The notes under the pieces were generated by a model that was not told the origin of the DNA, ran no database searches, and saw nothing but the letters and a program-made list of their open reading frames with translations. From assembly GCF_028372415.1 (NCBI RefSeq), contig NC_092872.1, forward strand, positions 93,712,075 through 93,776,074: 64,000 nucleotides of DNA, in the 5' to 3' direction. Of this stretch, positions 23,206-57,660 are shown one piece after another. This DNA comes from Notamacropus eugenii (taxonomy: Eukaryota > Chordata > Mammalia > Diprotodontia > Macropodidae). How positions within the stretch are numbered: position 1 is the stretch's first letter; each line of letters begins with the position of its first letter. A program made the position numbers and the translations under genes.

Positions 23206-23580
23206 AATTAATTTTAAGTTTTAAATAATATTTTATTCTCCCTCAGTTACATGTAAAGACAATTTTTAACATTCATCTTTCAAAAATTTTGAGTTCCAAT
23301 TTTCCTCTCTCTCCCTCATATTTCCCCTCCCTGAGATAGTAAGCAATTTGATATAAGTTATACATGCTCAATCATGCAAAACGTATTACCATATTAGTCA
23401 TGTTGAGAATGAAGATACAGACCCAAAGAAAAAAGAAACCCAGAAAAAAATATAAGAAGTGAAAAAGAGTATGTTTCAATCTGCATTCAGACTTCATCAA
23501 TTCTTTGTCTGGCTACGGAGAGCTTCATGAGTCCTTTGGAATTGTCTTGAATCACTGCAGCGTTGAGAATAGCTAAGTCA
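23206..23580 (-). mobile_element. L1-type LINE 3' UTR, antisense
   Basis: It begins with the antisense end (ttattctccctcagttacat, gtaaagacaatttttaac), then gttccaattttcctctctct, tacatgctcaatcatgcaaa, gagtcctttggaattgtctt, gagaatagctaagtcattca. Same family as 36706-37292 by shared wording. Confidence 0.65.
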
Positions 23581-26369: not shown

Positions 26370-26580
26370 CGGAAGCACCATGGTATGGTGGATAGAGCAT
26401 CAAAACCTAGAGTCATAGGACCTGGGTTCAGATTCAAGCTCTTTTAATTCCTATGTCACCTTGGACAAATCACTTCTCTGGGCCTCAGTTTCCTCATCAG
26501 TAAAACAAGGAAGATTGACTAGATGACTTCTCAGTTCCATTCTAGTTCTAAACCTATGATCTTATAATAAAGTACGTTTC
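26370..26580 (+). mobile_element. MIR SINE, donor of the local duplication
   Basis: Complete sense MIR: accatggtatggtggataga, ctagagtcataggacctggg, ggacaaatcacttctctggg, cctcagtttcctcatcagta, gactagatgacttctcagtt, cattctagttctaaacctat. Bases 26431-26552 recur downstream. Confidence 0.9.
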
Positions 26581-26779: not shown

Positions 26780-27060
26780 TAGAAGAGACCTAAGAGATAA
26801 TCTAGTTTACTCATCTGTCTCCTACTCATTTTGAAAAATGAGGTCATTGAGACCCAGAGAGGTTAAATGACCAAGGTCATATGGTAAATTAGAGGCAGAG
26901 TCAGGATTCAAGCTCTTTTAATTCCTATGTCACCTTGGACAAATCACTTCTCTGGGCCTCAGTTTCCTCATCAGTAAAACAAGGAAGATTGACTAGACGA
27001 CTTCTCAGTTCCATTCTAGTTCTAAAGTTCAGGTCTTCTGTCTTCAAAGTAGATAACGAA
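26780..27060 (-). mobile_element. Antisense MIR split by a 122-bp templated insertion
   Basis: The antisense MIR reads tttgaaaaatgaggtcattg, agacccagagaggttaaatg, gaggcagagtcaggattca. It is broken, then resumes gttcaggtcttctgtcttca after 27026. The break is filled by 26905-27026, a copy of 26431-26552. Confidence 0.85.
26905..27026 (+). repeat. 122-bp direct duplication of 26431-26552
   Basis: The two segments align end to end without gaps and differ at one base (agatgac versus agacgac, at a CpG in the second copy). The junction carries a gattcaag overlap. There is no poly(A) and no flanking duplication, so it is not a retroposition product. Confidence 0.95.
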
Positions 27061-33770: not shown

Positions 33771-34923
<1,153 letters not shown>

Positions 34924-36705: not shown

Positions 36706-37292
36706 ATGCCCATTAATTGGGAAATGGTTGAACTAACTGTGATATAAAAATGTAATGGACTACCATTGTACTATAAGAAATGATGAGCAAACAGATTTCA
36801 GAGAAACCTGGAAAGACTTACATGAGCTGATGCTGAGTGAAGTGAGCAGAAAGAGGAGAACATTATACGTAGTAACAGCAACATTGTACAATGATCAACT
36901 GTGATAGACTTAGCTCTTCTCAGACAAACAATGAGACAAGATGATTCCAAAAGACTCAGGATGTAAAATGCTATCCATGTCCAAAGGAAGGACTGATGAT
37001 TCAAAAAATGCAAATTGAACCATATTATTTTCACTTTGTTTTTTTGCGTTTTTTTCCTTTTGCTCCATTTCTTTTTTCCCACCACAACTTATGTAGAAAT
37101 ATGTTAAACATAATTGCACATGTATGACCTATATAAGACTGCTTGCTGTCTTAAGGAGGGAGAATGGGAAGGGGGAGGGGAATAAAGGAAGGAGAAAAGT
37201 TTGGAACTCAAAATCTTATAAAAATGAATGTTGAAAATGCTCTTCACATGTAATTGAAAAAAATTAGCTACAATTTACACAAAAAATAAAAT
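36706..37292 (+). mobile_element. L1-type LINE 3' UTR
   Basis: It reads cccattaattgggaaatggt, tgtaatggactaccattgta, aacctggaaagacttacatg, agctgatgctgagtgaagtg, gatagacttagctcttctca, gcttgctgtcttaaggaggg, ggaactcaaaatcttataaa. It ends in an a-rich tail near 37285. Same family as the antisense piece at 23206. Confidence 0.75.
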
Positions 37293-52196: not shown

Positions 52197-53045
52197 TGTA
52201 AAAAAAATAATTTATTCATTTTTAATTTTCAACATTCACTTTCACAAGATTTTTGAGTTCCAAATTTTCTCCCTATCTCTCCCCTCCCCTACCCCAAGAC
52301 ATTGTGCATTCTGATTATACCTTTCCCCAATCTGCCCTTCCTTCTATCATCCCTCTCCCTTCTCGTATCCCCTTTCCCCTCTATTTTACTGTAGGGCAAC
52401 ATAGATGTCTATACCCCATTGTTAGTGTATCTAATTTCCCAGTTGCATGTAAAAACAATTTTTAATGTTTATTTTTAAAATATTGTGTTTCAAATTCTCC
52501 CCCTTCCTCCCTTCCCATCCACTCTCATTGAAAAGGCAAGCAAATCAATATAGATTATACATGTGTAATCATGCAAAATGCTTCCATAATAGTCATGTTG
52601 TGAAAGACTAACTATATTTCCCTTCATCCTATCCTGCCCCCCCATTTATTCTATTCTCTTCTTTGACCTTGTCCCTCCTCAGAAGTGTTCACTTCTTATT
52701 ACTCCCTCCCCAATCTGCTCTCCCTTCTATCATCCCCTCTTCCCTTATCCCCTTGCTCCCTACTTTCCTGAGGAGTAAGATAGATTTCCATACCTCCCCT
52801 TAAGCCAAATTTGATGAGAGTAAGGTTCACTCATTCCCTCTTACCTCCCACTCTTTCCCCTCCACTGTAAAAGCTTTTGCTTGCCTCTCTTATGTGAGAT
52901 AATTTACACCATTCTACCTCTCTCTTTCTCCAGCAAGTATAGATTTCTCTCATCCCTTAATTTTATTTTTAGATATCATCCCTTTATATTCAACTCACCC
53001 TGTACCCTCTGTCTATATCTATCTATCTGTATATATATATCTATC

Positions 53046-53093
<48 letters not shown>

Positions 53094-53117
53094 ATATATA
53101 TATGTGTTCTCTTCAAC

Positions 53118-53219
53118 TACCTTAATACTGAGAAAGATCTCATGAGTTACAAATATGATGTTTCCATGTACCTTAATACTGAGAAAGACTCATGAGTTAC
53201 AAATATTATGTTTCCATGT
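53118..53219 (-). repeat. 51-bp tandem duplication in the outer 3' UTR
   Basis: taccttaatactgagaaag ... tttccatg occurs at 53118-53168 and 53169-53219 with three differences. The nested copy has one unit only (about 54940-54990). A (TA)n/(GA)n run is adjacent at 53027-53098. Confidence 0.92.
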
Positions 53220-53304
53220 AGGAATGTAAATAGCTCATCTTTAATAAGTCCCTTATGATTTCTCTTTCCAGTGCACCTTCTCATGCTTCTCTTGAGTTTT
53301 GGAT

Positions 53305-53792
53305 TCAAAAGTCAAATTTTCTATTTAGCTCTGGTGTTTTCATCAAGAATGCTTGAATGTCCTCTATTTCATTGAATGTCCATTTTTCCACCAAAGGATT
53401 ATATTCAGCTTTGGTGGAGAGGTGATTCTTGGTTTTAATCCTAGCTCCTTTGACTTCCTGAATATCACATTCTAAGTCCTGCAGTCCCTTAATGTAGAAG
53501 CTGCTAGATCTTATTTTATTCTGATTGTATTTCCACAATACTTGAATTGTTTCTTTCTATCTGCTTGCAAACTGGAAAGTTTCTCCTTGACATGGGAAGT
53601 CCGGAATTTGGGTATAATATTCCTAGGAGTTTTCCTTTTGGGATGTCTTTCATGAGGTGATCTGTGTAGTCTTTCAATTTCTATTTTACCCGCTGGTTCT
53701 AGAATATCAGGACTATTTTCCTTGATAATTTCTTGAAAAATGATGTCTAGGCTCTCTTTTTTTTTTTTTACCATGGCTTTCAGGTAGTTCAA
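53305..53792 (-). pseudogene. L1 ORF1p relic, RRM-like and C-terminal domains (outer element)
   Basis: ORF1p is the RNA-binding trimer-forming chaperone of L1. Two overlapping frames cover it. 53792-53511 gives the RRM-like domain (ESLDIIFQEII, IEIERLHRSPHERHPKRKT). 53538-53305 gives the C-terminal domain (SSFYIKGLQDLE, WTFNEIEDIQAFLMKTPELN). One frameshift separates them. The natural stop at 53305 agrees with the usual ORF1p end. Confidence 0.82.
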
Positions 53793-54026
53793 TATTTTTT
53801 AAAATTATCTCTCCTGGTTCTATTTCCCAGATGAGTTGTTTTTGCAATTAAATATTTCATATTGTCCTCAATTTTTTCATTCTTTTGATTTTGTTTTATG
53901 ATTTCTTGATTACTCATAGAGTCATTACCTTATATTGGCTTTATCTTAATTTTTAAAGAATTATTTTCTTCAATAAACTTTTGGACCTCCTTTTCCATTT
54001 GGACAATTCTGCTTTTAAGGTGTTCT

Positions 54027-56898
54027 CTTTTTTTTATTGTCTGAGCTTTTTAATGTTTATTTATTTATTTTTAGTTTTCAATATTCAAGTCCACAAATTT
54101 TGTGTTCTAAATTTTCTCCCCATCTTTCCTCTCCCCCATCCCAAAACTCTGAGCATTCTGATTACCCCTTCCCCCAATCAGCCCCCCTTCTATCATACCC
54201 CTCCCTTCCCCTATCTCCATCTTCTCTCTTGTCTTGTATGGCAAGATAAATTTCTATAACCCATTACCTGTATTTCTTATCTCCCAATTGCATGCAAAAA
54301 TAATCCTCAACATTTATTCTTAAAACTTTGATTTCCAAATTCTCTCCCTTCCTTCCTCCCCACCCATGCCCACTGAGAAGGCAAGCAATTCAACATAGGA
54401 TATATATGTGTACTTTTGCAAACTACTTCCATAACAGTCATGTTGTGTAAGACTAACTATATTTCCCTCCATCCTATCCTGCCCTCCATTTATTCTATTC
54501 TCTCTTTTGACCTTGCTCCTCCTCAAAAGTGTTTACTTCTAATTGCTCCCTGCTCCCATTTGCCCTCCCTTCCATCATCCTCCCCACACCACTTATCCCC
54601 TTCTCCCTTACCTTCTTGTAATGTAAGATAGATTTTCATATCAAATTGAGTATGCATGTTATTCATTCCTTAAGTCAAATGTGATGAGAGTGAGCTGCAC
54701 TTTTTCCCTCTCACCTCCCCCCTTTTTCCCTGCACTGAAAAATCTTTTTCTTGTCTCTTTTATGAGAGATAATTTGCCCCACTCCATTTCTCCCTTTCTC
54801 CTCTCAATATATTCCTCTCTCACCCCTTCATTTTATATTTTAAAATATCATCCCTTCCTATTCAACTTACCCTGTGCTCTCTGTATGTGTGTATATGTGT
54901 GTGTATGTATGTATGTATGTATGTATGTATAATCTCTCCAACTACCCAAATACTGAGAAAAGTTTCAAGAGTTACAAATATTATATTTCCATGTAGGAAT
55001 GAAAACAGTTCAACTTTAGTAAGTCCCTTGTGATTTCTCTTTCCTGTTTACTTTTTCATGCTTCTCTTGATTCTTGTGTTTAAAAGTCAAATTTTCTATT
55101 CAGCTCTGATCTTTTCATCAAGAATGCTTCAAAGTCCTCTATTTCATTGAATGGCCATTTTTCCCCTGAAGTATTATACTCAGCTTTGCTGAGTAGGTGA
55201 TACTTTGTTTTAATCCTATTTCCTTTGACTTCTGGAATGTCATAATCCAAGCCCTTCAATCCCTTAGTGTAGAAGCTGCTAGATCTTGTGTTATCCTGAT
55301 TATATTTCCGTAATACTTGAATTGTTTCTTTCTAGCTTATTGCAATATTTTCTCTTTGACCTAGGAACTCTGGAATTTGGCTACAATATTCTTTGGAGTT
55401 TCTCTTTTTGGATCTCTTTCAGGAAGTGATTGGTGGATTCTTTCAATATTTATTTTACCCTCTGGTTCTAGAATATCAGGGCAGTTTGCCTTGATAATTT
55501 CATGAAAGATGATTCTAGGCTATTTTTTTGATCATGGCTTTCATATAGTCCAATAATTTTTAAATTGTCTCTCCTGGATCTCTCTTCCAGGTCAGTTGTT
55601 TTTCCAGTGAGATATTTCAGATTATCTTCTATTTTTTTCATTCTTTTGGTTTTGTTTTGTGATTTCTTGGTTTCTCATAAAGTCATTAGCTTCCATCTGA
55701 TCCATTATAATTTTCAAAGAAAATTTTCAGTGAGCTTTTGAACCTTCTTTTCCATTTGGGTAATTCTCTTTTTAAAGCATTCTTCTCCTCATTGACTTTT
55801 TGGATCTCTTTTTCCAATTGAGTTAGCCTATTTTTAAAGGTGTTATTTTCTTCAGCATCTTTTTGGGTCTCCTTTAGCAAGCTGTAGACTCACTTTTCAT
55901 GATTTTCTTACATTGCTCTCATTTCTCTTCCCAATTTTTCTTCCACCTTTTTTTAAATTTGATTTTCAAAATAATTTTTGAGCTCTTCTATGGTCTGAGA
56001 CCTTTGAGTATTTATTTTGGAGGTTTTGGATGCAGAGGCCTTGACTTTTATTCCTTCCTCTGATGCAGGTCATTGTTCTTCCTCATCCAAAAGGATGGAA
56101 GAAAATACCTATTCACCGAGAAAGTAACCTTCTATAGTCTTATCTTTTTCCCTTTTTGGGGCATTTTCCCAGCCAGTTACTTGACTTTTGAGTCCTTTCT
56201 CAAGAGGGGGGTGTACTCTGGGGACTTGTAAATTCTGAGTTCCTCCAAGATGGCACAATTAAGGGAAAGGAGTTTACTCCTGTCCTGGCCTGCGCTCTGT
56301 TCTGGGAGGTACCAAAGCTTTTCTGCCCAGGATCTTCAAGTAAAATTCCTTTTCCAGAGCCTCCACCAGCTCCTCTACTCCAGCACTCTTCCTCAACCCA
56401 GGGCTGCCACTCAGGGCTGAGACCCAAATCAGTGGCTTAATTCCCCCTGGGTTTTAGGCCCAAGCTCCAAAAATGGATGCTGCTGCTGCCATCACCAGGG
56501 GCCATGGCCCTGCTCCCTTCTCACACAGATGAAAAAGCTTTCTCAATGACCTTTGAAGCTCTCTTTGACATTTGTGTGTTGAGGGATCTGAGAACCACAG
56601 CTGCTGCCCAGCATTCTGACTCTGAGGTCTGTTCCTGTCCTGTTTCTGCCAGTGCTGCACCACCAAGGATGAACTGGGTTCCATGGGTTGTGCTCTGCTC
56701 CACACCTTGTGCTATAGACTTTTCTTGTCAACCTTCCAGGCTATCTTGGGCTGGAAATCTCTTTTACTCTGTCATTTTGTGGCTTCTGCTGCTCTAGAAT
56801 TTGTTTAGAGTCATTTTTTACAAGTATTTTATGGGCTGTGGAGGAAGAGCTAGAATAGGTGCATCTTTCTGCTTTGCCATCTTGGCTCTGCCCCCTCC
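54027..56898 (-). mobile_element. Inner ORF1-only L1 (HAL1-like), near full length, about 2.87 kb
   Basis: It starts on the minus strand at 56898 with ggagggggcagagccaagat then ggcaaagcag, the standard L1 5' start. It runs through about 900 bases of 5' UTR, then a broken ORF1 (about 55950-55085), and then directly into the same 3' UTR as the outer copy, ending in poly(A) at 54035-54028. Flanks aaggtgttct (54017-54026) and aaggcattct (56899-56908) match at 8 of 10 and sit at the same point of the outer ORF1. There is no trace of ORF2. Confidence 0.85.
55686..55880 (-). pseudogene. L1 ORF1p coiled-coil segment (inner element)
   Basis: The 64-codon open run MLKETQKDAEENNTFKNRL..LEKEIQKVNEEKNALKREL has leucine heptads, as in the ORF1p coiled coil. 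Downstream ORF1 matches the outer copy but is interrupted in every frame. Confidence 0.75.
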
Positions 56899-57660
56899 AA
56901 GGCATTCTTCTCATTGGTTGTTTGGACCTCTTTTGCCATTTGTATTAGTCTATTTTTTGAAGTGTTATTTTCTTCAGTATATTTTTGGGTCTCCTTTAGC
57001 AAGCTGTTGACTCATTTTTCATTATTTTCTTGCATCACTCTCATTTCTCTTCCCGATTTTTCCTCTCCTCTTATTTAATTTCCAAAATCTTTTTTGAGCT
57101 CTTCCATGCCCTGTGATCAATTCATATTTTTCTTGGAGGCTTTGGATATAAGAGCTTTGATTTTGTTGTCTTCTTCTGATTTATGTTTTGATTTTCTTTG
57201 TCATCAAAGTAAGATTGTGTAGTCTGAGTTTTTTCCCCACAGTTCATTAATTTTCCCAGCCAATTACTTGACTTTTTAGTTCTCCTTTAAGGTAAGATTC
57301 TGCTTTCAGTGTGGAGGGTGTACTGTCTCAAGCTTCAAGGGTTTTGTGCAGCTGTTTTCAGAGATACTTCTAAGGACCTGTAAATTTTCAATTCTACCAA
57401 GATGTTATGATCAAAGGAGAGGTGTTTACTCCATTCCTGGCTTGTACTCTGGTCTATAGTGACCACAAGCACTCTTTTCTACATTGGAATTGTTTGTTCC
57501 TTCTTAAAGTCTGCCAAAGTATTCCATGATAATCTTAAGAACATTTCCTGTCTGACTAAAGGAATTTAAGTTAATATATGTTGTATCCCATCATGGGAGC
57601 TCCAACAGGATCTCATAGGTCAGGTCTTCCTGATTCCAGATCCATCACTCCCATCTATTG

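Follow-up and report, generated by a model that had tools for sequence, protein, structure and literature searches.

A half-L1-type element nested in ORF1 of an older relative in the genome of Notamacropus eugenii

A 64,000-nucleotide stretch of the Notamacropus eugenii genome (contig NC_092872.1, positions 93,712,075 to 93,776,074; hereafter the window, whose own numbering is used throughout) contains an L1-type element inserted into another element of the same general build. On the minus strand, an inner element (56898-54028) splits the first open reading frame (ORF1) of a second, 5'-truncated outer element, of which the two pieces lie at 57484-56899 and 54027-52197. We interpret this locus, with a probability of about 0.93, as a full-length HAL1-type ('half-L1') element that entered, in matching orientation, ORF1 of an older copy of this type that is itself 5'-truncated. 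The element type is well known, the nesting is of an ordinary and already known kind, and the locus leaves the current view of L1 or HAL1 unchanged. It provides a clear single example of a half-L1 lineage copying after an earlier copy had landed, and also a caution that the order of two old insertions may not be reflected in how far each has diverged from an ancestor.

Anatomy of the nested elements

When the outer flanks are joined, they align colinearly to the inner copy over both ORF1 and the 3' untranslated region (UTR), with ordinary gaps. By blastn, the inner copy matched the outer 3' piece in a single alignment (1847 columns, 74.9% identity with gaps counted, E=0), and the outer 5' piece matched inner positions 56303-55774 in three alignments of 82, 78 and 291 columns. 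Over 2132 ungapped columns, from which the microsatellite at 54880-54932 was excluded, the copies are 79.6% identical (Kimura two-parameter distance 0.242 ± 0.012). The first ~590 bases of the inner copy have no counterpart in the joined outer pieces, and thus the outer copy lacks the first part of its 5' region. The inner element reads from a 5' end motif through a 5' region, an ORF1 remnant and a GA-rich 3' UTR of ~1 kb to eight A. The original prediction, made from the sequence letters alone, had proposed both this nesting and the alignment of the rejoined flanks to the inner copy; the colinear flanks confirm the nesting, and the predicted inner coordinates hold to a base or two (Table 1). 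Positions 57484 and 52197, taken as the outer ends, are plausible and approximate.

Table 1. Features of the nested elements (window positions)
Feature	Position	Strand	Basis
Inner HAL1-type (half-L1) element, full length from its 5' end to the poly(A)	54028..56898	-	blastn, alignment, 5' motif
5' end motif (L1-type) of the inner element, GGAGGGGGCAGAGCCAAGATGG	56877..56898	-	motif search and shuffles
Inner ORF1 remnant, with stops and frameshifts	55080..56176, start approximate	-	frames, protein matches
Inner 3' UTR, directly after ORF1, ORF2 not detected	54036..55079	-	tblastn, Pfam
Inner 3'-UTR end modules	54650-54290, 54275-54050	-	self-comparison
Inner poly(A) end, eight A	54028..54035	-	sequence
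Target-site duplication, 5' copy AGAATGCCTT	56899..56908, may reach 56912	-	anchored flank overlap
Target-site duplication, 3' copy AGAACACCTT	54017..54026, may take in 54027	-	anchored flank overlap
Outer 5' piece: truncated 5' region plus N-terminal remnant of ORF1	56899..57484, outer end approximate	-	blastn, alignment
Outer 3' piece: ORF1 remnant (C-terminal) plus 3' UTR	52197..54027, outer end approximate	-	aligns to inner 55783-54059
Outer ORF1 remnant, N-terminal part	56899..57270, start approximate	-	alignment, frames
Outer ORF1 remnant, C-terminal part	53308..54027	-	Pfam Transposase_22 and solved LINE-1 ORF1p at 53511-53792
Outer 3' UTR, same arrangement, ORF2 not detected	52197..53307	-	tblastn, Pfam
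Outer 3'-UTR end modules	52800-52440, 52425-52215	-	self-comparison

Both ends of the inner element lie where they had been predicted. The motif GGAGGGGGCAGAGCCAAGATGG, which is of the L1 5'-end type, has no other match in the window at up to three mismatches, and none of 100 shuffles contained one. At the opposite end the poly(A) is present as eight A. Eleven bases, GCTCAGACAAT (54036-54046, minus strand), stand between the A-rich family end and these final eight A, and could be a tiny 3' transduction.

The junction was examined by aligning the two outer flanks one at a time to the inner ORF1, which is uninterrupted and served as reference. The end of the 5' flank and the start of the 3' flank share the same ten reference bases, and this 10-bp overlap marks a target-site duplication, short and decayed. 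The two copies, AGAATGCCTT and AGAACACCTT, are identical at 8/10 positions. Their two differences (TG versus CA) fit one CpG decayed on different strands, and a difference of 2/10 agrees, in a tiny sample, with the level found between the elements themselves. Across the window, 45 of 63,991 10-mers (0.07%) match the end of the 5' flank at 8/10 or better, and 421 (0.66%) match the reference at 7/10 or better, the level reached by the 3' flank. The aagg..ttct flanks that the original prediction had placed at one point of the outer ORF1 correspond to this same site on the plus strand.

The inner copy might owe its place to a local rearrangement (a duplication, or recombination of adjacent copies) and not to retrotransposition. 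The two copies do lie in the same orientation, and the duplication test is weak when unanchored. However, homologous recombination inside ORF1 does not produce a precise stretch from an L1-type 5' end to poly(A), and 10 bp of a single ORF1 site are present in both flanks. We therefore rejected local rearrangement, which we regard as extremely unlikely.

ORF1, the missing ORF2 and the half-L1 reading

The L1-type nature of ORF1 is seen most directly in the outer copy, in which the segment 53511-53792 matches Pfam Transposase_22 (E=4.1e-8) and the solved LINE-1 ORF1 protein (ORF1p; E=1.8e-7). The inner ORF1 is tied to this type through the outer one, to which it is 82.1% identical at the DNA level over 710 columns. 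Both frames are now broken, the inner one so badly that its corresponding pieces score poorly.

ORF2 was not detected in either copy. Two pieces of true L1 ORF2 taken from near the start of the window (132 and 50 aa) gave no match to the element region by tblastn at E up to 10, and a Pfam scan of 10 of the 25 listed stop-free 3'-UTR frames of at least 25 aa found no reverse transcriptase and no endonuclease; one of the scanned frames gave two bacterial families below the cutoff. In 2/2 window copies ORF1 leads directly into a common 3' UTR; the copies align across this junction without a gap, at ~80% identity on either side. The predicted order of a 5' part, ORF1 and a common 3' UTR, with ORF2 in neither copy, is thus borne out by alignment, tblastn and Pfam.

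Two ordinary L1 copies, one nested in the other, could also have lost ORF2 separately by deletion. Internal deletions occur in old L1s, and the window does hold part of the ORF2 reverse transcriptase of an autonomous L1 at 227-622 on the plus strand (RVT_1, E=1.2e-12; best match named as solved LINE-1 ORF2p, E=9e-37), which indicates that autonomous L1s have been in this genome. However, the gapless passage from ORF1 to 3' UTR common to both copies would need identical deletion end points twice. Separate deletions were rejected on this ground and are very unlikely.

The anatomy is that of HAL1, a documented non-autonomous L1 derivative, and the assignment is made by anatomy. In the parts of the literature cited here, HAL1 is described as encoding only ORF1p and as having arisen several times in mammals (PMC5753468), with poly(A), duplications and reliance on the enzymes of full-length LINEs (long interspersed elements; PMC5322556), L1 being the likely source of the machinery (PMC4161310). 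Both copies resemble these descriptions in having ORF1 only, no ORF2 and a presumed dependence on L1, and the inner copy also in its poly(A) end (eight A) and its flanking duplication (10 bp, 8/10, significant only when anchored) (PMC5753468, PMC5322556, PMC4161310). An active HAL1 is reported in rat (PMC8535693); the part of a family table cited here includes HAL1 families of marmoset and guinea pig and has no such entry under opossum or wallaby (PMC3183009). With autonomous L1s the elements share the L1-type 5' end and an ORF1 with the Transposase_22 domain; they differ in that ORF1 is followed directly by a 3' UTR of ~1 kb, where an autonomous L1 has an ORF2 with endonuclease and reverse transcriptase.

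ORF2-less elements of this kind are usually explained by target-primed reverse transcription with the L1 ORF2 protein supplied in trans, and the inner copy most likely moved in this way. Its RNA would have been reverse transcribed at a nicked target, and the lack of ORF2 suggests that the ORF2 protein of an autonomous L1 acted on it in trans.

The two ORF1 remnants have a TGA in common at the same codon (55892 in the inner copy and 57014 in the outer, minus strand), and the same frame switch near the ORF1 C-terminus (near 55142 and 53367, respectively, minus strand). These shared defects hint at a common source in which ORF1 was already broken, the lineage being a pure RNA cargo of L1, a suggestion that we consider rather unlikely. 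If it were true, a broken-ORF1 lineage would have spread without encoding either protein, in the manner of a short interspersed element (SINE) in the body of a LINE. Convergent decay would explain both defects, with CGA changing to TGA twice and slippage occurring twice in one A-run.

Several observations weigh against the nested HAL1 interpretation. Protein-level support is uneven: one inner ORF1 piece matched LINE-1 ORF1p at E 0.37 at best, which is weak alone, a second had no solved-protein match up to E 1, and no Pfam family was found for five inner and three further outer ORF1 pieces; in another Pfam scan the longest inner N-terminal piece gave only coiled-coil-type families below the cutoff. 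The ORF2-less lineage rests on two copies, and blastn found no third copy of this ORF1 within the window. An unanchored search for the target-site duplication, in which length and offset were free to vary, gave no significant result (521 of 3000 random pairs were equal or better), so that the duplication rests on its anchored position. The insertion site is unlike TT/AAAA, the usual L1 target motif. For the outer element, no duplication of its own could be assigned (7/8 at best with free sliding and no control run), and a clean poly(A) was not seen. Finally, none of the polarity proxies presented below (stops, frame switches, polarised changes and ORF1p residues) places the inner copy nearer the ancestor.

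In both copies the 3' UTR holds a related end module twice, 56-60% identical (Table 1), and its tail resembles the ends of two other repeats at about 23243-23420 and 37085-37272; by blastn within the window, the short relatives of the tail lie near 23243-23412 and 37109-37272. The outer 3' UTR also contains a 50-bp tandem duplication (53118-53220, 96%) that is absent from the inner copy.

Divergence and relative age

Both copies are heavily decayed, and the divergence between them varies along their length. Identity is 74.7% in the 5' part (483 columns), 82.1% in the C-terminal part of ORF1 (710 columns) and 80.3% in the 3' UTR (939 columns). The 5' part is more diverged than the ORF1 C-terminal part (p=0.002) and the 3' UTR (p=0.017), while these last two do not differ (p=0.37); it also carries blocks found in one copy only. 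The greater divergence of the 5' regions suggests that the copies probably belong to different subfamilies. Thus, the idea that the element had entered a member of its own family holds at the family level and probably not at that of the subfamily.

Within ORF1, the differences are spread evenly over the three codon positions (54/299, 50/299 and 58/297; p=0.67). Among codons with a single change, that change is synonymous in 26/93 (0.28), which does not significantly exceed the 0.23 expected under neutrality (p=0.16). From these counts, the ORF1 differences look neutral, which suggests that most of the divergence between the copies arose by decay after insertion. The two insertions therefore need not be far apart in time, and the gap between them may have been short.

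In place of a family consensus, proxies were used to place each copy relative to the ancestor. Over 293 codons, five stops are found only in the inner copy, five only in the outer and one in both; private frame switches, judged by eye from the frames, number about four and one, respectively. Changes in the 3' UTR were polarised with the two internal end modules and the two tail relatives as outgroups, which are only ~56-73% identical and thus weak. Unanimous calls gave 36 inner and 23 outer changes (p=0.12), divided into 25 and 16 in module A and 11 and 7 in module B, and majority calls gave 43 and 34 (p=0.36). Left out were 23 positions in module A (11 with split calls, 3 other and 9 that lacked a reference) and 16 in module B (8, 7 and 1, respectively). 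With single reference sets, inner and outer changes were 19/19 for A by B, 14/10 for B by A, 17/10 for A by the tails and 8/4 for B by the tails. Counted by eye on alignments to solved LINE-1 ORF1p, 15 of the 45 aligned positions differ between the copies; the outer copy keeps the ORF1p residue at seven of these (one beside a gap), the inner at one and neither at seven. CpG counts (3 and 4) were uninformative, the outer count taking in ~120 bases of flank.

The original prediction had expected the inner copy to be closer to a family consensus, and the proxies do not show this (36/23 changes, 5/5 stops, about 4/1 frame switches); some of the counts even lean toward the outer copy as the one nearer the ancestor. 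The order of the two events stands from the anatomy, because an insertion is younger than its target. The accompanying claim that the lineage was still moving after the outer copy had settled is supported by the same nesting, an ORF1-only copy lying inside an ORF1-only relative. Nested insertions are described as a source of relative ages in the part of the source cited here (PMC2517846), and as in such cases a younger element splits an older one; the difference is that host and guest belong here to the same ORF2-less family, which gives an order and little family chronology.

Further searches and other features of the window

Searches outside animal DNA gave no relative of the element. Eight pattern matches by protein were obtained in viral contigs, none of them a relative; exact DNA patterns had no match in viral contigs or in bacterial and archaeal genomes, and nothing was found in plasmids and phages. 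Such absence from viral, prokaryotic, plasmid and phage DNA is expected for animal DNA. Scans of the window for tRNAs and with Rfam gave no matches either.

The window also contains a RACK1 retrocopy at 33879-34832 on the plus strand, with an uninterrupted frame of 317 codons and an A-rich tail after it; its best match among solved proteins has E 1.1e-207. Two SINE-like sequences, each 122 bp long (26431-26552 and 26905-27026, plus strand) and 474 bp apart, are 99.2% identical; the other repeat pairs in the same comparison are 69-88% identical, except two short ones of 32-36 bp. The SINE-like pair could reflect a recent local duplication, gene conversion or an assembly effect.

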